Shown here: positions 1 through 19,513 of the stretch, piece by piece
Numbering within the stretch: position 1 is the first letter of the stretch
Layout of the letters: each line of letters starts with the position of its first letter
IMG/VR virus record: IMGVR_UViG_3300026094_000047
Coordinates: 1 to 20,714 of that record
Direction: 5' to 3' (one strand)
Source: a virus
Length of the DNA stretch: 20,714 nt
The notes under the pieces: generated by a model
What the model was told of the DNA's origin: nothing
Database searches by the model: none
Seen by the model: only the letters and a program-made list of their open reading frames with translations
Position numbers and translations under genes: made by a program

Positions 1-1107
1 GAATTTGCTTTTTGGTGCACACAATCCACAACCACAAGTACGTTTAGGGCATATAATAGTAGGCATAGTATTAGATTCAAGTTTTTGTCGTAAATCTTCA
101 ATTATTTTTTTACCTTCGCTGATTTTTCCAATTGGTCCTCTTTTTTCGCCAAACAATGCTTGACAAGTTTGATGATGAAATACTCTATCTGTTTGTTGCT
201 CTAAATGTAGGAAAAACCAATTTACACTGCAATGCCACCCTTTAAATTCTCTCATGTCTACAAACGTGCTTTTGCGACTTTTGTCTCCACTGCTTAAACA
301 CATTTCTCGACTACCGCAGCAAGGTCTGCCTATGGTCATACCCAGCTTTTTATCCTCTGTTGTTTTTTCTCCTGCTGCACTGAGAGTTTTTGTAACTTCT
401 TTTTCATTATTTAATTCGGCGTTTTTGTACTTCCAATAATTTTTCATGTAATCAATTTGCTCATCTGTGTATCTATGAGCAAAATCACTTTTGCTATCAG
501 GTTCTTCACCGATTACCCTTGGAACATATTTTACACCATTTTCATGTAGGAAATCACAAAGTTCTTTACATTCGTCAAAATAAGCCGCGTGGAACATAAC
601 ATTAACACTTACACTAAAATCATATTCTGCGCCTTGTTCATGAAACTGCATTATCCGGTTACGCACCTGTTCTTTGAGTTTTTTACTGCTTTCACTGTGA
701 TAACTTACTGTGGCATGACCAAAATTTTCCATTACTGCTTGGCCCATTTTTTCGCTCATGGCACCATTGGTAGTAAGCGCAAATCCACATTCCCAACGAT
801 GTGCATACTCTTTATGATATTTTTCTTTTAAATACTTTGCAAATGGTATAAAGTTTGGATTCACAGTGGGTTCGCCGCCTGTGAATCCTATATTTGCCAT
901 TTTACTAGTTCTATATTGCATATAAAGATCAATATATTCATAGAGAAAGTCAGTATTAGCTTTTAATTCTTCTAAAGTTGCATGTCTACTAAAGTTGTCA
1001 TGTCTGTGTGCAGGACAATAACTGCAATCATAATTGCATCTTCTTCCTGTATCCCATGTTACTTGAAATACTCCTCCAGTTAAAAGGTCTATAGTGTCAA
1101 AACTCAT
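1..1107 (-). CDS. Radical SAM protein with Cys-rich C-terminal auxiliary-cluster region (3' end missing)
   Basis: A radical SAM iron-sulfur enzyme, substrate unknown. I read the frame by hand: it opens with ATG at 1107 and stays open for 369 codons to the window edge, so the C-terminus is missing. The [4Fe-4S] loop CNYDCSYC is at residues 24-31 and the SAM-binding GGEP at 77-80. The C-terminal third is rich in Cys: CCGSREMC (263-270), C293, C315, C353 and CGCGLC (358-363), as in SPASM/Twitch domains that hold a second cluster. Its ATG overlaps the stop of the upstream radical SAM gene (ATGA), so translation is probably coupled. It is the last visible gene of a ten-gene operon that continues beyond the window. 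The radical SAM assignment is firm; the reaction is unknown. Confidence 0.9.
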   Translation of the reverse strand, partial: MSFDTIDLLTGGVFQVTWDTGRRCNYDCSYCPAHRHDNFSRHATLEELKANTDFLYEYIDLYMQYRTSKMANIGFTGGEPTVNPNFIPFAKYLKEKYHKEYAHRWECGFALTTNGAMSEKMGQAVMENFGHATVSYHSESSKKLKEQVRNRIMQFHEQGAEYDFSVSVNVMFHAAYFDECKELCDFLHENGVKYVPRVIGEEPDSKSDFAHRYTDEQIDYMKNYWKYKNAELNNEKEVTKTLSAAGEKTTEDKKLGMTIGRPCCGSREMCLSSGDKSRKSTFVDMREFKGWHCSVNWFFLHLEQQTDRVFHHQTCQALFGEKRGPIGKISEGKKIIEDLRQKLESNTMPTIICPKRTCGCGLCAPKSKF

Positions 1108-2417
1108 TTAAAATAATCCTTAAATATTGGTTCTACATCAGATATGGATTCGCTTCTTATTTCATCAAGCTTTTTAGTGTATTCAATAAATTCATTCCAC
1201 CACTGATCATAATAAGTTTCGCTGTTCATGTAGTTGCATATACCTTCACTGATTGTTTTTGCACTAGTAACTATATGATCAGGGTATTTTTTATTTTCTA
1301 CCCATTTTATAAAATTGTCAAATCTTTGTGTTGCAATTTGTTTTAATTCTTTGGGCAATACTCTGATGTTTAAATGTTCTGGTTTGTGCGCTACGTGATG
1401 GGTAATAATTGGTCTTCTGTGAGTTCTATTTATATTTTGGAAATTGCTGCTTTCCAATTTCCACTGCATAAAATCAGGAATGTGAAATATGTTGTAAACT
1501 GTAACTGTTAGAGCTAACCAACTTTGAACATTTTTTGGTAAGGTATCAAGAGTTTTTAAATTTTTGTATATTTTATTCCACTTTGCAGGATGACGTTGAT
1601 ATTCCAAAACCTTTTCCATGCCATCTACGCTTGCACCTACTCGTACAGATTTAAATTCTGTCCACAATGATATCACACGAGGTGGCAAAGTACTCATGTT
1701 GGTGTTGTATTCGATTGTGATATTTTTTGCAACATCATTGTCTATACAGCGTTGTAAAAAATCATAATGACGTTCAATTAACAGAGGTTCGCCGCCAGCA
1801 AAATAAACATGTGCAATATTGTGTACATTTTTTTCTAATTGATGCCAAAACTGTTCGTTATTTGGCCAATCAAAATCACTAGCACACAATTTACCATTAA
1901 CTTCTTCTATAGTTACATCACCACTGGTGTCGTTAAAAACATTCGAACCAGTTAATTTAATCCAATCTTCGTACCAACTATCACTGTCTGACGGTCCGCA
2001 CATACGACATTTTAGATTGCAAAAGTTACCAAATCGTAAGTCATAGTATACAACTGGAGTTTTTTCAGTATCTATTCTACCGTCTTGATCTGTTTGTTGC
2101 AGTGCATCTTGTATATTGAATTTCCATTGTGCTTGTTCGTAGCTGCGCCTGCTGTTAAGTCCTGTTTCTTCTTCTCGCTTGCAGCGCCCACATTCTTCGT
2201 TCCATATACCGTTTAACATATTTTTGCGAATATTTTTCATTAATTCGCTGTTGCGAGCTTCTTGTAAATTATCTTTACCTGCATTATAAGCAGTTCCGTC
2301 ATGTTTTCGTATAACACCTTTGTTTTGTGTAACATTGGCCTGACAGCATACTCGCAGGTCTCCGTTGGATCTTGCGGCTTGAAATATCCAAGGAATAGGA
2401 CAAAAAGTATCAGCCAT
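1104..2417 (-). CDS. Radical SAM protein with N-terminal Twitch-like Cys module
   Basis: A 437-residue radical SAM enzyme of unknown substrate. The core loop CNLKCRMC is at 133-140 and GGEP at 208-211. Before the core lies a Cys module: C6, then G19 and CC24-25 (the spacing C-x12-G-x4-C known from SPASM domains), followed by ECGRC with C76 and C79. Family knowledge places such auxiliary-cluster Cys after the core; here they precede it. The C-terminal 100 residues have no Cys pattern and end in a hydrophobic/acidic stretch like those of its paralogues. It is clearly paralogous to the genes at 4543-5940 and 12021-13394. It overlaps the PP-loop gene upstream by 8 bp and the next radical SAM gene by 4 bp, so all are likely translated together. 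Confidence 0.9.
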   Translation of the reverse strand: MADTFCPIPWIFQAARSNGDLRVCCQANVTQNKGVIRKHDGTAYNAGKDNLQEARNSELMKNIRKNMLNGIWNEECGRCKREEETGLNSRRSYEQAQWKFNIQDALQQTDQDGRIDTEKTPVVYYDLRFGNFCNLKCRMCGPSDSDSWYEDWIKLTGSNVFNDTSGDVTIEEVNGKLCASDFDWPNNEQFWHQLEKNVHNIAHVYFAGGEPLLIERHYDFLQRCIDNDVAKNITIEYNTNMSTLPPRVISLWTEFKSVRVGASVDGMEKVLEYQRHPAKWNKIYKNLKTLDTLPKNVQSWLALTVTVYNIFHIPDFMQWKLESSNFQNINRTHRRPIITHHVAHKPEHLNIRVLPKELKQIATQRFDNFIKWVENKKYPDHIVTSAKTISEGICNYMNSETYYDQWWNEFIEYTKKLDEIRSESISDVEPIFKDYFK

Positions 2418-3234
2418 TTTTTATCTCCGTAATTATTTCAGTGACACGAGAATCTGCCCATTCTCTTTCGTTACACCACCAACACTGTTTACATTCAGGA
2501 ATATGCATTCCTTCTTTATAATCTGTAAAATCAGAACATGCTTGTTTTATCACATCATGATGATTTATATCACCTTCGCAACTGCGTGTTAAATGATATA
2601 AATCTAATATATTATGCAGATGATATTGAGCTACTATCCAATCTTTTTTAACAAATCTAAATGGATGAGCAAAAACTGTTTCAGTATTTCGATTATAAAA
2701 CCATAAATCTGAAATATTTCCATCTTTTGCATCGCCATCTCTGTTTTTCATGCGATCATCTCTGCTATCGTCTGGATTTTTACTAGTAGCATTGAATACT
2801 GCATCAAAATTGTAATTCCATGCTGCAAATTTATTAAAACTTCCAACTATGATCTGGTCGCCGCTACGACCATTTAAAATTGGTCCGGCAACACCATGTT
2901 CGATTTCAGGAGGAATATAAGTAGTATGTCTATTTTCGATAATATTTGGATACATATTTTTAAGGAAATTATAAACTTGTATACTAATATAACCTTGCCA
3001 AGGACGAGTAGTCCAACAACGCTGATAAGTGATAACATCAATTTTAGTCTTTAAAGAGTTTTCGTTTATAATTTTACATAAAAGAAAAGTCAATAATGCG
3101 CTATCTGCGCCGCCGCTGAGATTTACACCAATACGCTGCCAATTTTTGTCAAAGGGTATCAAAAGATGACTAACTTTTGTAAATAATATATCATCGTTTA
3201 ATTTTTCATATAATTGGTTATTATCTTTATACAT
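2410..3234 (-). CDS. PP-loop ATP pyrophosphatase, QueC-like
   Basis: A 274-residue adenylating enzyme of the N-type ATP pyrophosphatase superfamily. The PP-loop SGGADS is at residues 40-45 after a beta-strand (GVNL), the signature used to bind ATP and activate a carboxyl or carbonyl group for amidation or thiolation. The C-terminus has RSC (C219) and CKQCWWC (C248, C251, C254), resembling the zinc site of QueC (7-cyano-7-deazaguanine synthase), although the gap between the first and second Cys is longer than in QueC. It lies between two radical SAM genes, overlapping each by 8 bp. No other queuosine-pathway gene is visible. A role in amidating or thiolating the product of a neighbouring radical SAM enzyme is inference; a true QueC or a tRNA-thiolation relative are alternatives. 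Confidence 0.8.
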   Translation of the reverse strand: MYKDNNQLYEKLNDDILFTKVSHLLIPFDKNWQRIGVNLSGGADSALLTFLLCKIINENSLKTKIDVITYQRCWTTRPWQGYISIQVYNFLKNMYPNIIENRHTTYIPPEIEHGVAGPILNGRSGDQIIVGSFNKFAAWNYNFDAVFNATSKNPDDSRDDRMKNRDGDAKDGNISDLWFYNRNTETVFAHPFRFVKKDWIVAQYHLHNILDLYHLTRSCEGDINHHDVIKQACSDFTDYKEGMHIPECKQCWWCNEREWADSRVTEIITEIKNG

Positions 3235-4546
3235 TCTTTAATACCTTGTTATTCACAAATTTAAAAGTGCTTATATAATTATTAAAATCTTGTTTCCAAA
3301 TTTTGTCACTTTTGCGAACATAAACTTCAAATGCCTTCCAGTGTTGTTCAGCAGCCTGATGATTTAATACATATTGCTTTACTTTATCAATGGCATAATG
3401 TGCACTGTTAAGATCTTTCCACTCGTGGCTGTTGTAATAATTTCCAATATACGAATGAAGTTTAGATGATGCAGCAATATTAGCCTTTCTTTGTGATTCT
3501 ATGTTTTCAACAATTTTATAAGATTTTTCTATTTCATCTAATACAAAATCTTTGTGTTCTATCATCATTATACTAGGATTTAAATAATCAGGTGTGTAAA
3601 CTATACTAGTATCTATACCATCGGAATCTAATTTTAAAAATCCATCTATTATATCAGTAAACTCCATTAGTTGATAAACACCAGTTGTACAAACTAAAAC
3701 AATATCACTGGTTTTATTAACCTGCCTATATTTTTCTATGTTGTTTTTTAGTTTATTCCAATTGCCTTGTCTAAAATAAGGATAAATTTTTGGGCCACCG
3801 TCGATGCTAATCATAATTTGAACACTATTAAAATTTTCAAGTAACTTTCCAAGTTTATTTGCATCAAAATCAGCGTTAAAATTAGTATGAAACATTATTT
3901 TCATATTTTTTACATTAGGATGTTCTGTAAGTTTTTCCAAAGTAGGCAAAAACTGCTTTTGATATAATACTTCGCCGCCGGCGAAATCAACTCTTTCTAA
4001 ATTAGGAAAATTTTTGTTAAGATCTTCAACAATTTCCAATGCATGATCTTTGCTGATACTCATAGTTAAATCATCATCTGGTGATTTTCTATGCATAGCA
4101 CCAGTAAGCTGAATTAATTCATGTTCTTTATCTTCGCTATCGCTTTGATAATGCTTTAACTTACTCATCCAACCGCTGCTAAAAACCATACTGCAATGCA
4201 AGCAAGCCATATTACAACTGTTACTAAAACGTATTTCCGCCGTTTTTAACCCAGCAAAATCCACACTGCCGTCTTTGTTATAATATGTTAGATCAGCAGT
4301 TTCCTCTTGACGCATGCTGGTTCCGCTGTTATCACGTTCAACAAATTCACACATATCACAACCTTTTGGCCAGATACCGTTCATAAGGTCTTTGCGATGT
4401 TTTTTAAAATTTTCGTTATTAAAAAATTTACTCGGAAGATGTTCATTATCTAATATTGTTAATTGATCGCTTTGTTGCGGACAACTAGTAGCAAATCCGT
4501 TTTTAAAATTAATTCCTCCTAATGCATAATAACAAGGCAAACTCAT
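3227..4546 (-). CDS. Radical SAM protein, divergent member of the N-terminal Cys-module family
   Basis: A 439-residue radical SAM enzyme. The N-terminal module is C5, G17, C22 (C-x11-G-x4-C) then C63 and C66 (GCDMC). The core loop CNMACLHC is at 111-118 and GGEV at 190-193, with Val in place of the usual Pro. The double Cys of its relatives is a single Cys here, so a putative auxiliary cluster may have another ligand set. The C-terminal region is alpha-helical in character without Cys. Start ATG overlaps the upstream stop by 4 bp (ATGA); its own end overlaps the PP-loop gene by 8 bp. It is the most divergent of the four N-terminal-module paralogues, which suggests a different substrate. Reaction unknown. 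Confidence 0.88.
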   Translation of the reverse strand: MSLPCYYALGGINFKNGFATSCPQQSDQLTILDNEHLPSKFFNNENFKKHRKDLMNGIWPKGCDMCEFVERDNSGTSMRQEETADLTYYNKDGSVDFAGLKTAEIRFSNSCNMACLHCSMVFSSGWMSKLKHYQSDSEDKEHELIQLTGAMHRKSPDDDLTMSISKDHALEIVEDLNKNFPNLERVDFAGGEVLYQKQFLPTLEKLTEHPNVKNMKIMFHTNFNADFDANKLGKLLENFNSVQIMISIDGGPKIYPYFRQGNWNKLKNNIEKYRQVNKTSDIVLVCTTGVYQLMEFTDIIDGFLKLDSDGIDTSIVYTPDYLNPSIMMIEHKDFVLDEIEKSYKIVENIESQRKANIAASSKLHSYIGNYYNSHEWKDLNSAHYAIDKVKQYVLNHQAAEQHWKAFEVYVRKSDKIWKQDFNNYISTFKFVNNKVLKNV

Positions 4547-5940
4547 TTATCAAAAATCTCCTTCATTTCAGGAAATACATTTTTCCAGTTTTGCTTGCGT
4601 TGATTATCGCATACTCGCAGGAATTCCTCCATTTCAGGAAGACGACGGCTCCAATCTTCACTTTCCATAAAATTTAGCATTCCTTCTAAACGTTTAAGGC
4701 CATACGGAGCATTTTCCCACATAGATTGTGTTACTTTACCTTTGTGCCAACTAGGAACACCTAACTCCCAATTTTCCTTCCACCAAGGATAAAAATCTTC
4801 GTATTTTTTTCGTACTTCCTCTTTAAACCATTTGGGTAGTACTTTTACATTGAGATGAGGTGGATGGTATACAAAATGATAATTAATTCCACCAGCGCCA
4901 AAAGGCCACATATTAATTTTACGAAATCCTTGATTTAATTTCCATCGTATAAAGTCAGGTATATAATAGATGTTAAGTGCTTGTACTGCACAAGCTACAG
5001 TTACTTCTACATTATCACTGGTTTGATTATCTAATATATGAAATACTTCCTGTGTACGATTCCAATTACTTGGATAACGTATATAATCATTCATTTCATG
5101 TATACTGTCAACACTGTAATGAAATCTTACAAGTTTAAATTCTTTCCAAAGATCAAATAAATCGTCACGCCATTCAACGCCGTTGCTGTTATATCGAAGT
5201 TCTAGATTCTTAGCATATCCCATTTTAATAGCGTGTTCAAGTATTTCATAATGTTCGTCAATAATAAGACTTTCGCCCCCGGCAAAGTATATCTGTTGCA
5301 TACTTTCCATTTGTTCGTAGAATTGTTTCCAGAATGTAGGATTTTGTTTGTGCCAGTTATAACTGCTGCCATTGACACTGCCTTTGTCTTCCCATTGCAT
5401 GGTTTCTTTGAGACTGGCATTTTCTACCGCAGGAAACATTGCCTTCCAATCCTTAACCCAGCCGCTGCTGTCATGCGGAGAACACATAACACAAGCCAAT
5501 TGACATTTAGTGCCGAAACGCAAATCAATGTATGCTAATTGTGGTGGCACGGAGCCATCTTCGTCTGTATTTGCAATTAATTCATCAACATTGGTACGCT
5601 GGCTCCAATATGCTGTTTCCCACATACGCTTGCTGTTATGGCCTGCTGCTTCTTCTTTGAAGCACTTAAGACAGCTTGGAGGTTTTTCACCATTGAGCAT
5701 TTGTTTACGAACATTTCTCATATATTCGCTGTTCCATGCAGTTTCAAAATCTGTTACATTTAGGTTGTTAGGTTTTCCATCGTCTGTTTTTAAGATTCCT
5801 ACTTGTCCGCCATGTTCTTTGTCATTTGTAGGGCCAACACTGCTGGCATTGGCAGTGCAACAGACTCTCATACTACCATCGGGTCTAGTGGATAAATGAA
5901 CCCAAGGTAATATACAAAATGTATCACTAATCTTGCTCAT
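4543..5940 (-). CDS. Radical SAM protein with N-terminal Twitch-like Cys module
   Basis: A 465-residue radical SAM enzyme and a close relative of the product of 1104-2417. N-terminal Cys module: FCILPW with C9, G22, CC27-28 (C-x12-G-x4-C), then C90 and C93 (CLKC). The core loop CQLACVMC is at 146-153 and GGES at 221-224. The C-terminus ends in a helical segment with the pattern FPEM..IF, shared with the paralogue at 12021-13394. There is no convincing Shine-Dalgarno in the 11-base gap before the ATG, so reinitiation after the upstream stop is likely. Substrate unknown. The paralogy of this protein and the 1104-2417 product is close enough that one may act on a related or neighbouring position of the same target (inference). 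Confidence 0.9.
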   Translation of the reverse strand: MSKISDTFCILPWVHLSTRPDGSMRVCCTANASSVGPTNDKEHGGQVGILKTDDGKPNNLNVTDFETAWNSEYMRNVRKQMLNGEKPPSCLKCFKEEAAGHNSKRMWETAYWSQRTNVDELIANTDEDGSVPPQLAYIDLRFGTKCQLACVMCSPHDSSGWVKDWKAMFPAVENASLKETMQWEDKGSVNGSSYNWHKQNPTFWKQFYEQMESMQQIYFAGGESLIIDEHYEILEHAIKMGYAKNLELRYNSNGVEWRDDLFDLWKEFKLVRFHYSVDSIHEMNDYIRYPSNWNRTQEVFHILDNQTSDNVEVTVACAVQALNIYYIPDFIRWKLNQGFRKINMWPFGAGGINYHFVYHPPHLNVKVLPKWFKEEVRKKYEDFYPWWKENWELGVPSWHKGKVTQSMWENAPYGLKRLEGMLNFMESEDWSRRLPEMEEFLRVCDNQRKQNWKNVFPEMKEIFDK

Positions 5941-5951
5941 GCTGTACTTAT

Positions 5952-7013
5952 CTACTTGTTTATATAATTTATCTCATTATGATATGCTTTGTGTGCTGCA
6001 CAGGTTTTTATACATCTATTAAAATGTAAAGCGTGATCAGGATCCCAGCTAGCTTCTAATAATTCTTCATACCACGGATGTTTTTGAATTTTTTCTACTG
6101 AATGGTATCTAAGACTGTTCCAATTTGGTTCAAAAACTTGTAATTTTTCAACAATACCTTCTTTGTTTTTAAAGGCACTGTCCCAAAGAAAACAACATGG
6201 CCACATTGTTAAATCACTGGCTATAAAAATTTCACCTTCGTGAACATATTTGCAAACAATGCTGTCAATTATTGCTTTTTTTTGTTTGTTGTCTGTATTA
6301 TTTTTGTAATTTTTTATGAATTTATCAAGTTCTTTTACTGCTTCAAGTTTGCTATGCTGTTTGTTGCCTGTTGTGGTAATTTTTTTAGTTTCTTTTACTA
6401 TTTTTTTATTTTCTTTACGCTGTAATTGTGCTATCCAAGTATGATAACTGTTCCTCATACCTGTTCTTGTAGCAAAATGAAACCCTAATTGATCTGCATG
6501 CGATTTTGCAGCTTCTAATTCATGTTCGTTGTGATCGAACACTATGTAAATCCATGTAGCGTGTTCTTTAGGAGCAGCACTAGCATATGCTGCAATATTT
6601 CTTTCGATTATTTTAAACTTTGTGTTAACTCTATAAATATGATTGGTTTCTTTATGACCGTCTATACAAAAATGAACATGTACTAGACCTGGATAAGCAG
6701 CAGCTATTTGACCTAAACTCATCCACCAATCCGCTGTGTTATATCCACCATTGGTGCTTATTTCACAATATCCGCCGTGGTATACTAACCACTCTATCAT
6801 TTTTAAACAATCAGGATTAACTATCGGATCACCTAATACACCGCAAAATTTAAATTCTACACCAGTATAATCACCTGCAGGAAATATGCGCTTTAGATCT
6901 TCAATTGTAAAACTGTTTATTTGTAGTAAATCTTTATTTAAAGTTCTAGCACAACCTGGACATGCTGCATTACAATCACTGGTTATTTCTAATTCTACTT
7001 TTTTTATTCTCAT
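5952..7013 (-). CDS. Radical SAM protein with C-terminal Twitch-like cluster, CGxLGDP type
   Basis: A 353-residue radical SAM enzyme. The core loop CNAACPGC begins almost at the N-terminus (C14, C18, C21). Instead of GGEP it has CGVLGDP (57-63). Auxiliary-cluster Cys lie after the core: C254, CC273-274, C334 and C338, in the usual SPASM/Twitch order, although the Gly of C-x(n)-G-x4-C is Leu here. It is paralogous to the adjacent gene 7010-8089 (shared NHIYR, FDHN and PCC motifs), so the pair arose by tandem duplication. A Lys- and Thr-rich insert at about 200-240 looks disordered. Its ATG overlaps the upstream stop (ATGA). Substrate unknown; this pair belongs to a subfamily different from the other five radical SAM genes. 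Confidence 0.9.
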   Translation of the reverse strand: MRIKKVELEITSDCNAACPGCARTLNKDLLQINSFTIEDLKRIFPAGDYTGVEFKFCGVLGDPIVNPDCLKMIEWLVYHGGYCEISTNGGYNTADWWMSLGQIAAAYPGLVHVHFCIDGHKETNHIYRVNTKFKIIERNIAAYASAAPKEHATWIYIVFDHNEHELEAAKSHADQLGFHFATRTGMRNSYHTWIAQLQRKENKKIVKETKKITTTGNKQHSKLEAVKELDKFIKNYKNNTDNKQKKAIIDSIVCKYVHEGEIFIASDLTMWPCCFLWDSAFKNKEGIVEKLQVFEPNWNSLRYHSVEKIQKHPWYEELLEASWDPDHALHFNRCIKTCAAHKAYHNEINYINK

Positions 7014-8089
7014 TTAAATTGTGCTCCAAAAGGATCAAATTCTACACCACACTTCATCGAACACACTTTTAATTTTCCGTTAGAGCAACTGGACTTGGAC
7101 CAACTGCGTTCTATTTCGTCAAAAATACCAGTGTCAAACACAGCTTTTAATCCTACTTTTTTTGCATTAATAGCATCTTTTCCGCCTGCATCATCTATAA
7201 ATTTCCATATTTGTTCTACTCTAGGATCTTTATGCCACCATTTGTACATACGGCCAGCAGTCCAACAACACGGCATTGCTAATCCTTCAGCAGTAATAAA
7301 CAAATTGCCTTCATCTTTGACTTTGCATTTTATTTCTACTTGGTCATAATAGGCATCTATGCTGCCGTGTTTGTTTGTTAATTTATCATATTTTTGTATT
7401 GCAGAATTTTGATATTTAACATCTGGCTTTTTTATTTCAACTGTTTTTTCGCCTTTGCGATTTACAGCTTGATGACTCTCTTTCTTTTCACTGTTAGCTG
7501 TAACAAACCTGCCGGTTTTTTTAGAAATAAACTTTTCAAACCCCCAGGCTTTACTGAGTGCTTCAGCTTCTTCTACTTGATGCTGATTGTGATCAAATAT
7601 AAGAAAGTCCCAGCGTGCTCTGCCACCAGCAGAAATAAAAGCATGCATACTGCGCTCTACTGAACTCCAATTTACACCTTGTCTATAAATATGGTTGGTA
7701 TCTTCTAATCCATCAACACTGAAAATAACTGCACCCATGCGTCCAAAAACTTTGGCTAATTCTTTCCACCATTCTGCATCTCTTGCACCTGCATTGGTGT
7801 TCATACTAAGCCACATGTTTGGGTTATGTTCTCTAAAATAGCGGAATATTTCTAATGTATCTCGTGCAACAATTGGATCACCTAAATTTCCACACATATA
7901 CATGGTATTTAATTGTGCTATAAATTTTGGTTCAAATATACGCTTAGCATCACTGAGCGTAATTTCACTTAAATCGATGTGGGGATTTACTGCGCCTCCA
8001 TTTTGATTTCTGTCACACATAGGACAGTTAGCCTGACAATTTTGTGTGTTTTCTAAATGTATGGTTTTTATATCTTCATATCTATACAT
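7010..8089 (-). CDS. Radical SAM protein with C-terminal Twitch-like cluster, CGxLGDP type
   Basis: A 359-residue radical SAM enzyme and tandem paralogue of the next gene downstream. The core loop CQANCPMC is at 18-25 and CGNLGDP at 66-72 in place of GGEP. The auxiliary-cluster Cys are C255, G269, CC274-275 (C-x13-G-x4-C), then C335, C343 and C347. A charged linker of about 25 residues near 200-225 separates core and cluster domain. Its ATG overlaps the stop of the 74-residue gene by one base (TAATG) and its stop overlaps the next start (ATGA). The two neighbours could form a heterodimer or act one after the other, but nothing in the sequence decides this. Confidence 0.9.
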   Translation of the reverse strand: MYRYEDIKTIHLENTQNCQANCPMCDRNQNGGAVNPHIDLSEITLSDAKRIFEPKFIAQLNTMYMCGNLGDPIVARDTLEIFRYFREHNPNMWLSMNTNAGARDAEWWKELAKVFGRMGAVIFSVDGLEDTNHIYRQGVNWSSVERSMHAFISAGGRARWDFLIFDHNQHQVEEAEALSKAWGFEKFISKKTGRFVTANSEKKESHQAVNRKGEKTVEIKKPDVKYQNSAIQKYDKLTNKHGSIDAYYDQVEIKCKVKDEGNLFITAEGLAMPCCWTAGRMYKWWHKDPRVEQIWKFIDDAGGKDAINAKKVGLKAVFDTGIFDEIERSWSKSSCSNGKLKVCSMKCGVEFDPFGAQFK

Positions 8090-8313
8090 TAATTATCCAT
8101 AATAAGTTTAACATCTTTTCCTGGTCCAGTTTTACTAGGCAAATCACCATATTGTTCCACATACCAATTTATAACAGCTTTATACCAGTTTTGACTATTG
8201 TGATGCGCTAGTTTGTTAAACTGCCAAATATTATTGTTTGTTGCTTGCATAGTACTCAATGCCCGAGCACTTTCCAGTTGTAATTGTCTAAGAGTTAAAT
8301 TATCGATATCCAA
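8089..8313 (-). CDS. Small hypothetical protein (74 aa)
   Basis: A 74-residue protein with no family I recognise. It is polar, has a likely N-terminal helix (residues 5-20), three Trp and a Lys-rich tail, and no Cys, signal peptide or membrane segment. The only start giving the full frame is TTG at 8313, with GAGG ten bases upstream; an in-frame TGA lies just before it. The first ATG is at 8250 (residue 22) and has no Shine-Dalgarno. It overlaps the methyltransferase gene by 14 bp and the radical SAM gene by one base (TAATG), so its frame is held by coupling on both sides, which argues that it is real. It may be an accessory protein for the radical SAM pair; that is a guess from position only. 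Confidence 0.6.
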   Translation of the reverse strand: MDIDNLTLRQLQLESARALSTMQATNNNIWQFNKLAHHNSQNWYKAVINWYVEQYGDLPSKTGPGKDVKLIMDN

Positions 8314-9136
8314 TTCTCATAAACCTCTTGTATTTACTTAATTGCAGTGCACCACTGAAAAGTTCTTGTGTCATCGGAGTTTTTTCGGAAAAATCTTCTA
8401 ACGTTGAACTGCAATTTACATGTTCCTTGATGTCAAAATAATCGTTGGTCTGCATAATCACTAATGTGTCGGATGGTATTTTTTCATACCAATCTTTAAA
8501 ATTATCAATGTGTTCACAGCTGGTATTAATCACTGTGTTTGGAGTATCATACAATGTTTCAGTTGTACCATCTTTTTTTAATACATCGTAAATGTGTTCT
8601 TCAAATCTTATCTCGTGTATATCTTGAACAACCGGTTTAAATTTCCAATTATCAATTACCCAAGGTTTATTAAAAATTTCAGCTATTTTTGCTGTGCTTG
8701 GATCAATATCAAAACTGCGAATTTTTTCTACTGATAAACCTGATTCAAAAATCATAGTAGCTAGCGCGCCATACCAGCCAGCACAAAGAAACACAGTGCC
8801 CAAGTTTAAATTTAATTTTTTCAGTTCATCAACTAGCCATAATTTACTTTGTAATTGCCCCCTACTAAAACAGTCTTGGTCAAAATCTATATTTTGTTCG
8901 TGCAGAGACTTTAATGTATACACAAAATTGGTGTCTACATATTGATTTAAAAGTCTCCACAAACTGTATGTATTATCATACATTACTAATTTTCGTATAT
9001 CTTCTTTGTTTTCCGTGGTTACTAATCTAAGTATACTGTGTATATCTCTATCAATATATGCTCGTCGAAGATCTTCCAAAGAGTCATTTTGCGGATATAA
9101 TAATTCAAATCTGTCTAATAGTTTAAATATTTCCAT
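8300..9136 (-). CDS. Class I SAM-dependent methyltransferase-like protein
   Basis: A 278-residue protein from the chosen ATG at 9136. A longer frame from a TTG at 9160 is less likely because AAGGA sits eight bases before the ATG. An alpha-helical N-terminal part (1-100) precedes a Rossmann-type domain: motif I as CAGWYGALA (118-126) after a beta-strand, motif II acidic FDIDP (142-146), and a later strand VINTSCEH (203-209) in the motif IV position. This arrangement fits class I methyltransferases; the usual GxGxG loop is altered to AGWYG. The target is unknown. It overlaps the glycosyltransferase-like gene by 14 bp, so it belongs to the same operon. It may methylate the sugar or protein handled by its neighbours (inference). 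Confidence 0.72.
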   Translation of the reverse strand: MEIFKLLDRFELLYPQNDSLEDLRRAYIDRDIHSILRLVTTENKEDIRKLVMYDNTYSLWRLLNQYVDTNFVYTLKSLHEQNIDFDQDCFSRGQLQSKLWLVDELKKLNLNLGTVFLCAGWYGALATMIFESGLSVEKIRSFDIDPSTAKIAEIFNKPWVIDNWKFKPVVQDIHEIRFEEHIYDVLKKDGTTETLYDTPNTVINTSCEHIDNFKDWYEKIPSDTLVIMQTNDYFDIKEHVNCSSTLEDFSEKTPMTQELFSGALQLSKYKRFMRIGYR

Positions 9137-10166
9137 TAAATTTTTCCTTGAGCCAGTCAAAATCGTTTATTTTTTTCAATGATTCCGGATCGTTGCGATA
9201 TCTTGTACCGTATGCAGCGCCAGCTTTTGCACCTTTCAATGCATAATCAGCAAATTCTACATCAGGCTTTGCATATGTACACCAAATTTTTAATCTAGAG
9301 TTTGTTTCTTCATCTTTTTGTCTATCAATGGTTTTAGATGCTAATTTACAACATTCTCTAAAAGCACCTTTCCACGTTTCAAACTCGCCTGTGTTAAACA
9401 CTGTAATATTAGAAATTTCTTTAACTGCTACAAACTTATCACTAATGCCCGTAGTCATATCAGGTTTGCTTGTATCCATGTTAATTGTTTGTTTTTTAGG
9501 AAGCAGTTTTACACCGCCGTAGCCGTAAACTAGTCCATTCACAGGATTTATACTACGCCATACGTGCACATGGTTTAACTGCCATTTTGGAACTTGATAG
9601 TCAAAATTAAAATCATCTAAAATTTCTGCGTCGCCGTCGACTACCCAAAACATATCTGTATTTGCTAACTTTGCTGCTTCTATGTGTGCTTGATGAATTC
9701 CTTTGACGCCATGTACACGTTTAGCATCCGGTACTTTTCTTAATAATCTTTGATAATTTTTATCTGCTGTTGATTCATTATAACTTATAAAAACTGTATC
9801 ATAAGGTGTAGTAATGCTAGGTCTACTAGCTAAAATATCAACTTTCTTTTTTGCAATAAAAAATCTAGTTTTTATTTCGTGGTCACTAATATAATTTTTT
9901 TTTGGAACCAAACAAACACCATCATGATATTTTCCGTTTAGAAAAACGTGTACATATTCTTGGCTTCCAGAATCTGGAGTATATGAAAAATTAAAATCGT
10001 TGCACACATCAATATCTGCCCATACTACCCAAAAGAATTTAGTAACTGATTTTTGCTGAGCATCTCTAAATGAAGATACATTTTTAGCAAATGGATAATC
10101 TTGTTTAAAATGTAACCATTTTTGTGTAAATTTTTGTTTTTCGTCAACAAAGAATATATCATACAT
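9123..10166 (-). CDS. Putative GT-A-like glycosyltransferase with internal duplication
   Basis: A 347-residue protein from ATG 10166. A TTG at 10190 would add eight residues but lies upstream of the -10 box of the promoter. The second half starts with a strand (FISYNE, 126-131), then VHGVKG (151-156) and FWVVDGDAE (173-181), a DxD-like motif typical of GT-A glycosyltransferases. The product of 13394-14320 matches it over its full length. The first 95 residues repeat the same plan in weaker form: FWVVWADID (45-53) aligns with FWVVDGDAE, and VPKK (87-90) with LPKK (222-225). The N-terminal copy has lost the DGD motif, so it is probably non-catalytic. It is the first gene of the ten-gene operon. 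The glycosyltransferase role is inferred from the motif only. Confidence 0.6.
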   Translation of the reverse strand: MYDIFFVDEKQKFTQKWLHFKQDYPFAKNVSSFRDAQQKSVTKFFWVVWADIDVCNDFNFSYTPDSGSQEYVHVFLNGKYHDGVCLVPKKNYISDHEIKTRFFIAKKKVDILASRPSITTPYDTVFISYNESTADKNYQRLLRKVPDAKRVHGVKGIHQAHIEAAKLANTDMFWVVDGDAEILDDFNFDYQVPKWQLNHVHVWRSINPVNGLVYGYGGVKLLPKKQTINMDTSKPDMTTGISDKFVAVKEISNITVFNTGEFETWKGAFRECCKLASKTIDRQKDEETNSRLKIWCTYAKPDVEFADYALKGAKAGAAYGTRYRNDPESLKKINDFDWLKEKFNGNI

Positions 10167-10172
10167 AAAAAG

Positions 10173-10201
10173 ATTATATAGCAATATCAAAAACTTGTCA
10201 A
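10173..10201 (-). promoter_or_regulatory. Consensus sigma70 (early-type) promoter of the radical SAM operon
   Basis: On the minus strand TTGACA (10201-10196) is followed after exactly 17 bases by TATAAT (10178-10173), a full match to the host sigma70 consensus. The region before the -35 box is pure A/T and could serve as an UP element. The expected start of transcription is at or within a base or two of 10166, which is also the A of the first ATG. The transcript would then have almost no leader. It drives the ten-gene run 10166 to 1. Confidence 0.8.
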
Positions 10202-10212
10202 ATTAAAATTTA

Positions 10213-10220
10213 GATAAATA
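10213..10220 (+). promoter_or_regulatory. T4-type late promoter of the fibre gene
   Basis: GATAAATA matches seven of eight positions of the T4 late -10 box TATAAATA, and fits the NATAAATA form used by marine T4-like phages. It lies 19 bases before the ATG at 10239, with the ribosome binding site GGAGG at 10228-10232 between them. Its position only 11 bases from the -35 box of the opposite promoter makes this a compact early/late divergent switch. Confidence 0.65.
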
Positions 10221-10238
10221 CAGTGACGGAGGATTGTA

Positions 10239-11408
10239 ATGGATTTTATACCAGGTGATCGATATAGAATTGATATAGTGGGCGCAGATAGTAAATTGTT
10301 AGTTGACAGCTGGTCTAGCCATATTCGAGCAGATGTAATATCAGCCAACGACACTCTTATGGTTGATACACAAAACGAAAAATTATATGGACCTTTAGTA
10401 GGTAATCTCGAAAACATCAACGGAGATACTGTTGTTGATGTGGAAAACAGCTCAATAGTTGCAAACCTAATCGGTGACGTGTTCAATAACAATAATGAAC
10501 TATTATTAGATGTTGACAGCAAGATTCTGCACAGTGATGTACATGGAAACCTTCTTGATATAAACGGTAATTTAATTGTCGATGCTGAAACTAGCATTGT
10601 AAGAGCAGATTATTTTGAAGGTGAGTTTCATGGCGAGTTTCACGGAAAAATTGTTACAGAAGATGTATTATCTGGATCTTTTTTTGGAGATTTTACTGGC
10701 AAATTTGCAGGAAAGTTTGAGGGAGATATTACCGGAGATGTATTCGGCAATGTTACAGGTGATATTAATGGATCATTAACAGGCGATGTTAACGGAAATT
10801 TATCTGGAAATGTAAACGGAAATCTATACGGCAATGTATTTAATACCAGTGGAGACTCTAAAATACTGGAGTCAACTCCGCAGACAACAAAATTATTAGG
10901 TACAAACAAAAGAATACAAATAGGCAGTAATCAAGATGAAATTTCTACAGTAAGTGAAAATATAATTGTTAATCTTTTAAGAAACAATCAATTAAGTTCG
11001 TGTATTATGTACAAGACACACAAAGGCGACGATTTTATGTCAACTGTCAGTGAACAATTTGAACCTAATGAAGTTCTTGTTTCTCATTTAACTGAAGCAT
11101 ATCACGAAAACAAATACATGTATGCCGGAGCCTACGGATTTGTTGTCGACGAAGGTTCGGTAGTAGACTATATGCCTTCGAAATTTTTTGTCAGTGTCAG
11201 TGATGGTTATAAAATGCCATCTGCTATTACCTCAACTCGTTTAGAATTAGACGGAAAAGGTGTTCTCAGTGTACCTGTTTTACAAACTCGAGGTATAAAT
11301 CTTGCACAAAGAGATAGTTTGCCTGTAAAAGCCGGAATGATTGTTTTTAACGAAAGCATCAAAAAGTTTCAAGGATTCACAGGCACCGAATGGGTTGACT
11401 TACATTAA
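10239..11408 (+). CDS. Tail-fibre-like virion protein with repeats
   Basis: A 389-residue protein that looks like a phage tail fibre or another trimeric surface fibre. Residues 18-125 hold about four repeats of roughly 25 residues built on a [LIV]VD...I...V.G[ND] plan. Next comes a tetrapeptide array, with Gly at every fourth residue from 146 to 198 (14 in a row, plus 128, 132 and 136), of the GDVx/GNVx type. The C-terminal domain ends in AGMIVFN...FQGFTGTEWVDL, the usual ending of marine myophage fibre proteins. The start has a strong GGAGG and a late promoter. It is the only clear virion gene inside the enzyme island and stands on the opposite strand. It may be the modified target or a host-recognition protein; neither can be shown here. 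Confidence 0.8.
   Translation: MDFIPGDRYRIDIVGADSKLLVDSWSSHIRADVISANDTLMVDTQNEKLYGPLVGNLENINGDTVVDVENSSIVANLIGDVFNNNNELLLDVDSKILHSDVHGNLLDINGNLIVDAETSIVRADYFEGEFHGEFHGKIVTEDVLSGSFFGDFTGKFAGKFEGDITGDVFGNVTGDINGSLTGDVNGNLSGNVNGNLYGNVFNTSGDSKILESTPQTTKLLGTNKRIQIGSNQDEISTVSENIIVNLLRNNQLSSCIMYKTHKGDDFMSTVSEQFEPNEVLVSHLTEAYHENKYMYAGAYGFVVDEGSVVDYMPSKFFVSVSDGYKMPSAITSTRLELDGKGVLSVPVLQTRGINLAQRDSLPVKAGMIVFNESIKKFQGFTGTEWVDLH
10674..10835 (+). repeat. 12-bp period repeat coding for Gly-x-x-x tetrapeptides
   Basis: Within the fibre gene a Gly codon returns every 12 bases for 14 turns (residues 146-198), usually followed by Asp, Asn or Lys, then a hydrophobic residue and a polar one. The DNA copies have diverged, so the array looks old or under selection for the protein pattern and not like a fresh slippage product. 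Confidence 0.85.
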
Positions 11409-11423
11409 TATATTTGTTATACT
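11395..11423 (+). promoter_or_regulatory. Sigma70-like promoter for the acyltransferase-like gene
   Basis: TTGACT (11395-11400), a 17-base spacer and TATACT (11418-11423) match five of six bases in each box. The -35 box is made of the last codons of the fibre gene. The expected start is near 11430, leaving a leader of about 25 A/T-rich bases without a Shine-Dalgarno before the ATG at 11455. Confidence 0.5.
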
Positions 11424-11454
11424 CATTGAATATATTTAATTAAAAATTTAAAAA

Positions 11455-12024
11455 ATGAATAATTGGAAAATAGAATTATACAACGGATCGCAAGATCTTG
11501 ATACTTTTTTTGCCGAAGCTCATAAAAAAGGTTTTTACAATAATAACAGCATTGACATACTGTTAAATTCAATAAGCAATATCGAAGAAACTAAACTTTG
11601 GCTTCTTTATTACAAAAATCAAGTAGTCGGAACAAATGTTGCTCATAGTTTAAAAGAACTGGGCATATTAGGAAAAAACGCATGGCGAATTGCTTCTAGA
11701 ACTTGTGTATTAACACATAAGATTGATAATTGGAAAATCGGTGTAAAAAATTACAGCGATCTAGTTTGGAATAATCCTACAGCTCAATTTCTTATACCAG
11801 CATGTATTGACTATGTAGGAAAGAAAAACCCTATGTATATTAGTACACACAAAGGTGATGTTGGAAAACAAAATGCAGTACATCGTGTATGGACCAGGGC
11901 TCAAGTTGAAGCAGGAATATTAAAGAATCCATTGGAATTAGAATACAGAGGAAGTATACAAACATTCTGGCAAGTTGATGTTGATGTTTTTAAAAAAATT
12001 ATAAATCAACACCGCTGGTGTTAG
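11455..12024 (+). CDS. Possible GNAT-type N-acyltransferase
   Basis: A 189-residue protein. The plan suggests a GNAT fold: an N-terminal helix-rich part, then a beta-hairpin (LWLLYYKNQVVGTN, about 48-61), a central strand at about 78-88 (WRIASRTCVLT), and a final part containing YISTHKGDVGKQNAVHRVW (about 127-145), similar in style to the late GNAT motif. I do not recognise it more closely, and the key acetyl-CoA loop (R/Q-x-x-G-x-G/A) is not evident, so the assignment is tentative. It starts with ATG and no Shine-Dalgarno, behind its own sigma70-like promoter. It converges on the radical SAM gene at 12021 with a four-base overlap of the two stop regions. In this context it could add an acyl group to a sugar or amino acid (inference). 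Confidence 0.5.
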   Translation: MNNWKIELYNGSQDLDTFFAEAHKKGFYNNNSIDILLNSISNIEETKLWLLYYKNQVVGTNVAHSLKELGILGKNAWRIASRTCVLTHKIDNWKIGVKNYSDLVWNNPTAQFLIPACIDYVGKKNPMYISTHKGDVGKQNAVHRVWTRAQVEAGILKNPLELEYRGSIQTFWQVDVDVFKKIINQHRWC

Positions 12025-13394
12025 GTATATTTCTTACATAATTCAAAAAAGTCTGACATCTCCGGAAACGCTGCGGTAAAATCATTGCCTCGACGTCTAT
12101 CTTGCTCTGTGAAAAAGTTATGAAAGTCTGTTCTGCCCTGAATAACTCGTTCTAATGGATATTCTGTAGTTTCCATATAATCTACTACGCGTCGAAACTT
12201 TTCATACTCGATAGTGCTAAATGCATCTTTTCGGTTATCGTCTACATTTTCTTTAATAAACTGTAAATGATCGTGCATATAATTCATATAGCTTTTTGGC
12301 AGTATGTTAATATCGTATTGTAAGGGTTCTTTGAGATAAGGTGTGTCAAATCCTAGTCGCTGCCAACGATGTGTTTCTACATCGTTGTACTTTGCACGCC
12401 ATTCCAATATTTTTTCTAAAAGACTGCGAAACGTGGTTACACTAAAAATGTTAAAAGTAATCATTAATGTCATCGGTGCTAAAGTATTGCGCATCCAATA
12501 ATCTAAATTCCTCTCAAACACTTCAATGTCTAACCCATCACGTATATATTCTGCTCTTTTAGTCCAAGTGTCAATACTGCTAAACAGTTTAAAACGTCGA
12601 ATTTTATCGTTTATAAGCAAATCGTTTACACGATTTGTAAATTTTTCCAACTGTTTAGGTTTACCTCCGAGATTACTATTGCAATTTAATTCTAAATTGG
12701 GTTTAGGATCTGCATCTAACATATCAAACAATCTATAAGTACTTTGTTGTATAGTAGGTTCGCCTCCGGTAATTCTTAAAATGTGAAGTTCTTTACTAAG
12801 TTCAGGCCACCAACGCCAAAATGCATCTAAATACGGATTGTTTTCTTCTTCAAATATTTTAAACCAATCAATATCACATCTGTGATTTTTAACGTTGGTA
12901 TAAGGACCATGTTGTTTAATTTCATTGTAATATCTGCTGCTGGCCTTAGGATGACAATACCCACAACGAAAATTGCATTCGTTGCCAAAACTGATTTCTA
13001 AATACTCCGGATTAACATTGAATTCAGAACCACCTTGTTTTACAGCATTTAATCTATGTTTAAAAAATATAGTTTGGTTTCGTTGTTTTCTATCACTAAT
13101 GTAATCTGAACCCATGTTTTCTATGTTCCAACAATACTGACAACCCGACGGTTGTTCTCCCCTTAACATAGCAGCACGTTCTTGTTTCTTTTGTGCTGTA
13201 TTGTGTATTGCACTAGGGTTGTCTTTGAGTGCTTCTACATCAATTTTGTGAGGTGCTGGATGATAACAACTATGGGTTTCGCCTGTTTGAAAATAGATGT
13301 TTGCATGGTACCATTTAGCAAAGCAAAATGTAGGAGATATTTCTTTTGTTATATTGTCGATGCGTTTGATTTCTTCGCTTTCGCTGCGTTCCAT
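12021..13394 (-). CDS. Radical SAM protein with N-terminal Twitch-like Cys module
   Basis: A 457-residue radical SAM enzyme and the seventh in the window. After a charged N-terminal extension of about 20 residues comes the Cys module C24, G38, C43 (C-x13-G-x4-C), then C85 and C88 (GCQYC). The core loop CNFRCGYC is at 140-147 and GGEP at 210-213. The C-terminal tail (FPEMSDFF) resembles that of the product of 4543-5940. It is separated from the other six by the plus-strand pair and belongs to the operon that starts at 16890. Its ATG overlaps the upstream stop by one base (TAATG). As the last gene of that operon it pairs with the glycosyltransferase-like gene just upstream, much as the other six follow a related gene. 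Substrate unknown. Confidence 0.9.
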   Translation of the reverse strand: MERSESEEIKRIDNITKEISPTFCFAKWYHANIYFQTGETHSCYHPAPHKIDVEALKDNPSAIHNTAQKKQERAAMLRGEQPSGCQYCWNIENMGSDYISDRKQRNQTIFFKHRLNAVKQGGSEFNVNPEYLEISFGNECNFRCGYCHPKASSRYYNEIKQHGPYTNVKNHRCDIDWFKIFEEENNPYLDAFWRWWPELSKELHILRITGGEPTIQQSTYRLFDMLDADPKPNLELNCNSNLGGKPKQLEKFTNRVNDLLINDKIRRFKLFSSIDTWTKRAEYIRDGLDIEVFERNLDYWMRNTLAPMTLMITFNIFSVTTFRSLLEKILEWRAKYNDVETHRWQRLGFDTPYLKEPLQYDINILPKSYMNYMHDHLQFIKENVDDNRKDAFSTIEYEKFRRVVDYMETTEYPLERVIQGRTDFHNFFTEQDRRRGNDFTAAFPEMSDFFELCKKYT

Positions 13395-14320
13395 TATATC
13401 TCTCTATCTAAAAACTTTTTGCTGTTGTCTCTTGCAGGATTTTGATATACTGTTTTGAAAAATTTACTTTGTTCGCTGTCCAGTGGACTTGCCGATATAG
13501 GTAAACTCAAGTGCGTTCTTAAACTTACTCCAATTTCTTCTATGCGTTCTAACAAATCTTTACCGTTAAACACTTCTAGTTCAGTGTTCCAATAGTTGTT
13601 TAGCCATTCAAAATCTCGTACATGTACAAAATCCCAATCTGTACACATGGTTTTATACAATCCTTCTCTTGCACCATAGATTGCCCATAGACCATTTTCT
13701 ACATCGGCACCTACCATTAACCAAATGTACAAACGATGTAAATTTTTCCAATGATTATTATAAAATTTTTCCGGAGTAACACGTAAACCTCTATCAAGCG
13801 ACATTTTAACACCCTCTCTAAAACCGGCGCGCCAGGCCTGATGTGGAGTAGAATTATTGTATATGTCGCTAAAGGTGCCATTCATCTGTACATATTCTGT
13901 ATCCCAACAAAAATCTACTTGTGCGTGTGGATTATTAGGATCAGCATTTTCGTGTGTACGCATATTAAGTACATGTTGTTTAGGCCAGCATTTGATGCCA
14001 CCGTTGCCATACGTTAACCCATTAATTGAATTTTTTGCTGTCCAACTAATAACTTTATTTGTAAGATCTACATCACTGTTAAAATCAATTGTTTGCGTAA
14101 GAAAATCATCTCGAATTCTATTATCACCATCAATTGTTATAAATCTTTCGGTGTTACTAAGTTTAGCTGCTGCTTTATGTGCACTGTCACTGCCTTTAAC
14201 ACCGTGTACACGCTCTGCCCACGGAACTTTTGAACATAAATCTGCATAATTTTTTTCAGCATTAGGTTCGTCATAACTGATGTATATAATATCACAGTCG
14301 ATTACTCTAAATTTATTCAT
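13394..14320 (-). CDS. Putative GT-A-like glycosyltransferase (single-domain paralogue of 9123-10166)
   Basis: A 308-residue protein from ATG 14320. GAGG lies six bases upstream of this ATG, so a TTG at 14332 that gives four more residues is not preferred. It aligns over its whole length with the C-terminal two thirds of the 9123-10166 product: YISYDE (13-18), VHGVKG (38-43), IDGD (63-66), NGLTYGNGG, a W-[RK]-x-[GA]-FRE motif, and a closing DFEWL. DGD is the candidate metal- and nucleotide-sugar-binding motif. It lacks the degenerate N-terminal copy. It overlaps the 187-residue gene upstream by eight bases. In both places this family stands upstream of radical SAM genes, which hints at a shared pathway. 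The glycosyltransferase role is motif-based inference. Confidence 0.6.
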   Translation of the reverse strand: MNKFRVIDCDIIYISYDEPNAEKNYADLCSKVPWAERVHGVKGSDSAHKAAAKLSNTERFITIDGDNRIRDDFLTQTIDFNSDVDLTNKVISWTAKNSINGLTYGNGGIKCWPKQHVLNMRTHENADPNNPHAQVDFCWDTEYVQMNGTFSDIYNNSTPHQAWRAGFREGVKMSLDRGLRVTPEKFYNNHWKNLHRLYIWLMVGADVENGLWAIYGAREGLYKTMCTDWDFVHVRDFEWLNNYWNTELEVFNGKDLLERIEEIGVSLRTHLSLPISASPLDSEQSKFFKTVYQNPARDNSKKFLDREI

Positions 14321-18023: not shown

Positions 18024-18028
18024 ATGGT

Positions 18029-19489: not shown

Positions 19490-19505
19490 GATGTGTCCTT
19501 GCTGT

Positions 19506-19513
19506 TACTTATA
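19506..19513 (-). promoter_or_regulatory. Possible degenerate late promoter
   Basis: TATAAGTA on the minus strand differs in one base from TATAAATA. It lies 16 bases before the ATG at 19489, overlaps the stop of the fibre-like gene, and is followed by AAGGA. Position and gene type fit a late promoter, but one mismatch in an A/T-rich genome leaves chance possible. Confidence 0.35.

Follow-up and report, generated by a model that had tools for sequence, protein, structure and literature searches.

The DNA examined here is an entire IMG/VR virus record of 20,714 bases (IMGVR_UViG_3300026094_000047), which we call the window; positions 1-13394 hold seven genes for radical S-adenosylmethionine (SAM) enzymes, rS1 to rS7. 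All seven open reading frames (ORFs) with a CxxxCxxC motif match the Pfam family Radical_SAM, PF04055 (E ≤ 3.8e-7; weakest 1.1e-4 by hmmscan), and five pass its curated cutoff, rS3 and rS1 falling below it. We aligned orthologues of rS2 to rS7 from the 51 viral contigs returned by a search with PPl, a PP-loop gene of the same locus; removal of duplicates and of matches below 29% identity or 60% coverage left 32 to 37 distinct sequences per set. The three motif cysteines are invariant in these alignments. Since they are kept in all six orthologue sets checked, the motifs are not a product of chance, and the initial annotation, which had proposed seven radical SAM genes here, was right; nor are the cluster ligands mutated in these relatives. 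Most cysteines of the N- and C-terminal modules are invariant as well. Among those that vary are C335 of rS2 and C270 of rS7; the C-terminal part is missing from nine rows of the rS7 alignment.

The seven enzymes fall into three architectures, as first described. Four carry an N-terminal twitch module and pass the 170-bit cutoff of NF033640, a subfamily model whose name gives no reaction: rS1 (303 bits), rS4 (426), rS5 (205), and rS6 (389). The other three are far below it (rS2, 42 bits; rS3, 36; rS7, 38). Two of these, rS2 with CGNLGDP and rS3 with CGVLGDP, have C-terminal cysteines that look SPASM-like by eye; a Pfam scan gave no SPASM match for either. The last, rS7, combines a GGEP motif with a cysteine-rich C terminus. 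It is truncated by the window edge and is complete, at 391 amino acids, in a contig with identical genes (locus L008, contig G001, 44.5 kb). Searches of solved structures with profiles of rS4 and of eGGEP2, a second GGEP enzyme of the locus, found nothing at an E value of ≤0.01, and rS2 matched only NifB (E about 1e-4).

The best NCBIfam matches of rS7 (viperin, MoaA, N_Twi) all lie far below their cutoffs. That viperin comes first among them, and that the PADLOC pVip model weakly matches both whole rS7 (E = 2.9e-10) and eGGEP2 (E = 6.6e-11; no cutoff is given), could be taken to mean that the locus serves defense or counter-defense, as a viperin-like antiviral nucleotide system against rival phages. 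However, the 369 amino acids of rS7 in the window score 41.5 bits against the viperin model NF038283, whose cutoff is 180, and the match does not reach beyond the first part of the radical SAM domain. A viperin-like system would also leave the rest of the locus unexplained, and we give this explanation hardly any credence.

Six of the radical SAM genes form, with PPl, a tightly packed run on the minus strand. From its upstream end, the run contains the glycosyltransferase-like gene GTa (9123..10166; start re-set from 10190 to 10166), the methyltransferase-like gene MT (8300..9160), the small gene sml (8089..8313), rS2 (7010..8089), rS3 (5952..7013), rS4 (4543..5940), rS5 (3227..4546), PPl (2410..3234), rS6 (1104..2417), and rS7 (1..1107). 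Two plus-strand genes, one tail-fiber-like (10239..11408; phrog_30742 tail fiber, E = 2.4e-8) and one for a 189-amino-acid protein without a family match (11455..12024), separate it from the seventh radical SAM gene, rS1 (12021..13394, minus strand). That gene belongs to an upstream glycosyltransferase unit, also on the minus strand, which includes a first gene at 16543..16890 (start moved to an ATG that follows an AGGAGG site), the putative glycosyltransferase genes GTd (15710..16546) and GTc (14878..15723), and GTb (13394..14332), related to GTa. The operon originally proposed is real as a same-strand run of six radical SAM genes with the PP-loop gene, but it does not stop at the window edge, beyond which lie three more radical SAM genes.

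The 44.5-kb contig G001 has ten radical SAM matches in all. Past the window edge it encodes a short, weakly short-chain dehydrogenase/reductase (SDR)-like protein, the N-terminal-twitch radical SAM enzyme eTwi, and a second PP-loop protein, which passes the Pfam QueC cutoff. Further on come eGGEP2, an Asp/Asn hydroxylase, a 238-amino-acid protein, a desaturase, and a radical SAM enzyme with a weak B12-binding match. A 259-amino-acid protein that matches no family comes next, ahead of a TauD-type dioxygenase and a methyltransferase.

To the 51 contigs found with PPl we added the best 80 of 346 related stretches found in IMG/VR with rS4, all at ≥82% identity, which gave 106 distinct virus contigs. 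We searched 98 of them whole for radical SAM genes, a set that does not include L009 or the contigs of L069, L070, L071, L083, L089, L118, and L125. Each of the 98 records, which include near-identical viruses left unmerged, has between 2 and 21 radical SAM genes, with a median of 10; in the 44 records of at least 50 kb the range is 4 to 21 and the median 10.5. The earlier remark that a phage rarely spends 9 kb on such chemistry is contradicted by these counts and by a published T4-like virus with 12 radical SAM genes (PMC5332604), and with a median of 10 genes per record we dropped the idea that the radical SAM genes are unusual for this phage.

We then compared gene content across 131 loci, merged into 67 groups by shared exact 300-mers. 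Groups were counted as upstream complete (n = 61) if at least 6 kb upstream of rS4 was examined and as downstream complete (n = 51) if at least 10.5 kb downstream was; because the loci were found by similarity to rS4 or PPl, all presence frequencies are conditional on those two genes. All 62 loci that contain three or more of the genes MT, sml, rS2, rS4, and eGGEP2 have them in this order on one strand. Among the upstream-complete groups, rS2 is universal (61 of 61, 59 within the examined stretch and two further upstream on the contig) and GTa is present in 56. MT was found in 43 by the first threshold; the other 18 absences are mostly a threshold artifact, since 15 of these groups have MT at 117-166 bits. 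Loci L032, L094, and L122 have no MT in the locus stretch, and their sml (and rS2 where flagged missing) lies outside it. Fifty-two groups have sml within the examined stretch and three have it outside, and it was not found in the loci or records of six groups (L051, L098, L129, L132, L139, and L141), all of which have rS2 and rS4. The downstream core gene eGGEP2 is present in 38 of 51 groups and elsewhere on the contig in 10 of the other 13, once as a contig-end fragment; in the remaining three the contig ends within 2 kb of the examined stretch.

The other genes come and go. Within the examined stretch, rS3 is found in 39 of 61 upstream-complete groups, and the 51 downstream-complete groups contain rS7 (43), rS6 (36), PPl (34), rS5 (31), eTwi (29), and eSDR (26). 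Among 47 groups there are 15 patterns of accessory genes, the commonest of which (all seven counted accessories) occurs in 16. Pairwise distances, computed without proteins whose length deviated from the median by more than 15%, are correlated among rS4, rS2, sml, and eGGEP2 (Mantel r = 0.60-0.82; permutation p = 0.001 each). The accessory rS3 tracks the core (r = 0.52-0.70), rS7 does so weakly (0.21-0.30; rS3 versus rS7, 0.76), and rS6 gives 0.11 with rS4, 0.02 with rS2, 0.00 with sml, and 0.20 with eGGEP2. This is the pattern that inheritance of a core together with exchange of some accessories, rS6 among them, would give. Median ratios of nonsynonymous to synonymous substitution (dN/dS), from gene pairs within a dS of 0.2-1.5, are 0.069 for eGGEP2, 0.076 for rS4, 0.137 for sml, 0.164 for both rS7 and eSDR, 0.176 for rS2, 0.232 for rS3, 0.287 for eTwi, and 0.329 for rS6. 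Judged by these ratios, rS4 and eGGEP2 are under strong purifying selection, and this selection and the invariant radical SAM ligands together argue that the product matters to the phage.

Further evidence that the core genes belong together comes from gene fusion. GTb aligns with GTa, and their profiles cross-match; a single ORF combines GTb, GTa, and MT in 10 of the 67 groups (12 ORFs, one of them in the 182-kb contig G097). Profile matches place the three parts in this order in 11 of the 12, and the remaining ORF is truncated where its contig stops. The initial annotation had assumed that the whole set acts in one multistep pathway and had asked whether it co-occurs in the same order. For the core this is borne out: the fixed order, the correlated distances, and the GTb-GTa-MT fusion make a joint pathway well supported. 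It does not extend unchanged to rS3, rS5, PPl, rS6, and rS7, whose presence varies, and some accessories occur in random combinations; rS6 has next to no history in common with rS4, rS2, or sml and little with eGGEP2.

GTa has no sequence family match. Its AlphaFold2 model (predicted local distance difference test score [pLDDT], 83.5; predicted template modeling score [pTM], 0.66) resembles GT-A enzymes, with B4GALNT1 first (Z = 11.4, root mean square deviation 2.8 over 137 residues) and SunS/ThuS and WrtF near Z = 10, and the two aspartates of its D-x-D motif, D185 and D187, are invariant in 22 aligned rows. The protein is predicted to have a GT-A-like fold, and it may transfer a sugar. For MT, Pfam, NCBIfam, and PHROGs contain no credible match, and because of this the methyltransferase label is motif based; the methyltransferase placed in the operon by the initial annotation has a Rossmann-like motif by eye, but no family stands behind the name. 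In relatives (e.g., L135:1273-4938), the MT N terminus carries a varying number of repeats of about 50 to 70 amino acids that match its own N-terminal part. Comparison of MT, GTa, and PPl profiles with solved structures gave nothing convincing.

The gene for the 74-amino-acid protein Sml separates MT from rS2. Conservation of the protein is strong (mean column identity, 75%), and only the last few residues vary. Sml is one of the reasons to consider that the radical SAM enzymes modify a peptide or protein, either the phage's own tail fiber or Sml as substrate or carrier, in a manner akin to ribosomally synthesized and posttranslationally modified peptides (RiPPs), with glycosylation as one step. 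The N-terminal twitch of four of the enzymes, the SPASM-like cysteines seen by eye in rS2 and rS3, the flanking tail-fiber genes, and the presence of the peptide glycosyltransferases SunS and ThuS among the structural matches of GTa are all in keeping with this. Sml itself, however, does not behave as a RiPP precursor. It is conserved along its length rather than divided into a leader and a variable core, and its AlphaFold2 model is a globular three-helix protein (pLDDT, 90.6). It was also not found in 6 of the 61 groups that keep rS2 and rS4, nor in any of 99 bacterial genomes, one of which has an island of homologous genes; that bacterial set held no positive control, and the same profile finds sml in four phage records. 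For these reasons we dropped Sml as the sole substrate. Foldseek gave no match at an E value of ≤0.001, and a profile search gave no credible one, the low E values belonging to designed proteins with no matched stretch that passes by itself; the protein is phage specific within the searches made. Because it was found neither in the 99 bacterial genomes nor in the six phage groups, accessory subunit or adaptor is a likelier role for Sml than that of the substrate. Peptide or protein modification as the purpose of the locus seems to us rather unlikely, though it deserves to be taken seriously.

PPl has an SGGADS motif and a QueC-like TRSCEG...C..CWWC.ER motif. In an alignment of 16 rows, S40, G41, G42, D44, and S45 are invariant, as are the four cysteines C219, C248, C251, and C254, which by analogy with QueC may form a zinc site. 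Family matches of PPl itself are weak (TilS, ATP_bind_3, and QueC-like). In many relatives, such as L009 (7832-8680), an extra PP-loop gene, which the window's virus lacks, lies between rS4 and rS5. A radical SAM enzyme beside a PP-loop enzyme with a QueC-like cysteine motif brings to mind the QueE/QueC pair, and the second PP-loop protein of L008 and one from a bacterium pass the Pfam QueC cutoff. The locus might then hypermodify nucleosides or DNA by a preQ0-like route. Unlike that pair, however, no radical SAM enzyme of the window reaches the QueE cutoff, and PPl is an accessory (34 of 51 groups). QueD (PF01242) is over its cutoff in none of 30 large records, which are fragments, with one match below it. 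We consider a preQ0-like route very unlikely.

The locus is about 28 to 29 kb long and lies beside tail-fiber genes in both contigs read through, G001 and G097. At the near end, in the window, tail-fiber and virion structural genes occupy 16956..20714 on the minus strand (355, 486, and ≥401 amino acids; phrog_29022 virion structural and phrog_19602 tail fiber); a Peptidase_G2 match within this stretch is below cutoff, and the 355-amino-acid protein there has no family match. At the far end, G001 has a gene with a weak Mtd_N tail-fiber domain (below cutoff) and a subtilase. G097 has the same layout, with tail genes at one flank and, at the opposite one, an Mtd_N gene that passes the cutoff. At the far end in L155, the Mtd_N-like gene is followed by one for a subtilase-domain protein (PF00082; L155:8617-10674).

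Upstream of the two minus-strand units stand the only perfect TTGACA-N17-TATAAT sites of the window (12/12 matches to the sigma-70-type promoter), both on the coding strand and each heading a gene run. The site at 16944-16916 precedes the glycosyltransferase unit, which has an AGGAGG leader; the other, at 10201-10173, precedes GTa, whose ATG begins at the seventh base after the -10 box. Across 67 related loci (one per group, 1.29 Mb), there are 39 perfect sites against 3.3 expected from base composition and 0 to 6 in five order-1 Markov controls. Of the 39, nine immediately precede GTa and ten immediately precede eGGEP2, and in these the ATG begins at the sixth to eighth base after the -10 box; relatives with this arrangement include L064, L073, and L108. 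The starts of GTa and eGGEP2 are thus predicted to be leaderless. Weaker promoter-like sites are no commoner in the window than by chance (99 versus 92.9 expected). The perfect sites suggest transcription by the host polymerase, as separate units. A 26-base inverted repeat at 16903-16928 extends across the -10 box of the promoter that heads the glycosyltransferase unit and is a possible operator, and the GTa promoter has an ATATTGC element that resembles it.

Several enzymes of the locus are of kinds met in natural-product tailoring. In at least one relative, a carbamoyltransferase, an AMP-binding enzyme, a nitroreductase, methyltransferases, TauD and Asp/Asn hydroxylases, a desaturase, and QueC are over their Pfam cutoffs; SDR, GDSL, and pyridoxal phosphate (PLP) enzymes and a B12-binding domain are below theirs. 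An O-carbamoyltransferase homologue (PF02543/PF16861) lies upstream of GTa at L139:247-1776, in a cluster of 7 members from 4 of the 67 groups. The AMP-binding enzyme, carbamoyltransferase, desaturase, weak PLP matches, and B12-type radical SAM enzyme, together with promoter sequences of host type that suggest expression by the host polymerase, would suit a diffusible small molecule (a natural product, signal, or inhibitor) made during infection and unrelated to the virion surface. Yet glycosyltransferase-like domains are fused to a core gene, and the locus lies by tail-fiber genes wherever its flanks were read. We recognized no transporter, though no search was aimed at transporters. A diffusible product strikes us as unlikely.

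By their capsid protein, the phages belong to the T4 superfamily. In one set of 50 records, 3 encode the capsid protein gp23 (PF07068); among 30 large records, 8 do, the 182-kb one included, and three records are common to both counts. The window and G001 have no match. Among the 20 best of 2,486 matches to gp23 of G031, the closest are Sinorhizobium phage Phosso (75.8%), Vibrio phage 2.275 (73.3%), and the GAP32/CBB group (about 70%), and none is a cyanophage or pelagiphage; identity to the nearest jumbo T4-superfamily phages ranges from 76 to 68%. Of 50,697 phage records searched, none matches PPl; rS4 has three distant matches, at 24-25% identity. Megablast of the window gave no match, in a search outside which records very near the window's own may fall.

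Bacteria carry related genes. NF033640 is over its cutoff in 30 of 99 bacterial genomes (those of a metagenome-assembled genome [MAG] and related bacteria) and in none of 14 control genomes. Scored matches number as many as 16 per genome, and tandem arrays occur. An island at about 638-665 kb of a 936-kb contig (G171:C15) holds homologues of rS6 (50% identity), eGGEP2 (65%), rS2 (46%), rS4 (59%), GTa (43%), MT (44%), and rS7 (47%, partial), an SDR gene, a PP-loop gene that passes Pfam QueC, and further CxxxCxxC genes. By eye, its flanks look like housekeeping genes, with an integrase-like gene nearby. Unlike the phage locus, the island is on a bacterial contig, has its core genes on both strands, and has no sml that we could find. 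Because this island holds homologues of the core, the core exists outside phages as well, without sml. A 13.5-kb contig of a Neisseriaceae MAG (L059) has GTb, GTa, MT, sml, rS2, rS4, and rS6 in phage order and is probably a misbinned phage contig. In G052 and relatives (L187-L196, L199, and L200), tandem arrays of N-terminal-twitch radical SAM genes adjoin other enzymes and membrane proteins; a first look gave as many as 36 candidates per genome, of which 16 were scored. In a bacterial MAG (L060:8615-14025), an integrase-like gene is followed downstream by a block of four neighboring CxxxCxxC genes related to rS1 and rS6.

Taken as a whole, we read the locus as a modular, phage-borne biosynthetic pathway in the tail-fiber region, whose likeliest product is an unusual glycan or sugar-derived group on the fibers or the host surface; we hold this tentatively, at somewhat less than an even chance. 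The fixed core (GT-A-like glycosyltransferases, MT, usually Sml, rS2, rS4, and eGGEP2) would make and transfer a constant element, and the interchangeable accessory radical SAM enzymes would vary the product from phage to phage. The PP-loop enzyme, QueC-like and perhaps carboxyl activating, may help to vary it, along with the oxygenase, desaturase, methyltransferase, and other enzymes. The glycosyltransferases would then place the sugar-type group on virion tail fibers or the host surface. What the sequences show is gene content, order, and conservation, intact radical SAM ligands, a modeled GT-A-like fold, the gene fusion, promoter-like sites, and the position in two contigs; the joint action, the sugar-type product, and the target are what we infer. 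The tail fiber is a putative substrate, to which the position near tail-fiber genes is the sole pointer.

A number of observations weigh against a surface glycan made by such a pathway. The best Foldseek hits of GTa are glycosyltransferases (E = 4.7e-5), with low TM-scores (0.19-0.33), and because IspD-type cytidylyltransferases share its fold and score nearly as high (Z about 10), we limit the call to GT-A-like. GTc and GTd have no diagnostic family match: GTc matches only phrog_1903, of unknown function, GTd nothing informative, and both are putative glycosyltransferases labeled by position. No nucleotide-sugar synthesis gene was recognized in the phage cassettes. Radical SAM enzymes with SPASM or twitch modules mostly act on peptides, which fits peptide modification better. 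The correlated distances of the core genes could also come from vertical descent alone, the gene frequencies depend on the two genes used to find the loci, and the flanks were read through in two contigs.

T4-like marine viruses rich in radical SAM genes are already in print. TARA_ERS488813_N000010 is a 183-kb T4-like viral genome with 12 radical SAM genes and iron-sulfur (Fe-S) assembly genes alongside (PMC5332604). Compared by description only, it is like our phages in being T4-like and rich in radical SAM genes; the available part of that account gives gene counts and describes no shared core, order, or pathway. The Fe-S carrier PF01521, looked for as a companion, is in 0 of 30 large records. 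Pelagimyophages have radical SAM cassettes in a host-recognition cluster, with glycosyltransferases thought to act on O-chains (PMC7029224). The likeness is that radical SAM cassettes occupy the tail-fiber/host-recognition region of T4-like phages; the differences are that gp23 of G031 is nearest to jumbo phages and that a core/accessory analysis is absent from the part of that account at hand. Radical SAM, methyltransferase, and glycosyltransferase genes are also prevalent in Tasman Sea phage contigs (PMC7150976), and que genes and a radical SAM-type auxiliary metabolic gene are discussed for Baltic viruses (PMC9301287). From such parallels in the literature, the habitat of our phages may be marine. 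The open-licence literature on radical SAM enzymes in phages and viruses, in the portions available, yielded no description of a core/accessory radical SAM locus.

Stretches of environmental phage DNA that encode the core enzyme rS4 number in the hundreds, and much of the locus consists of enzymes that need iron-sulfur clusters, SAM, and reducing power. The fixed core (rS2, rS4, and eGGEP2, with GTa) narrows these to a few proteins of first interest, and the bacterial island offers a cellular counterpart. If the product were soluble, the locus would be a large virus-borne biosynthetic cluster. It is possible, though doubtful, that the locus represents a new class of viral pathway, in which a radical SAM/glycosyltransferase core and swappable tailoring radical SAM enzymes would make a chemically new, phage-specific decoration that diversifies the surface of virion or host, an unusually dense array of radical enzymes thereby deciding recognition or exclusion. 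Were the decoration of fibers or host surface to prove true, it would add a new, diversifiable layer to phage-host recognition or superinfection exclusion.

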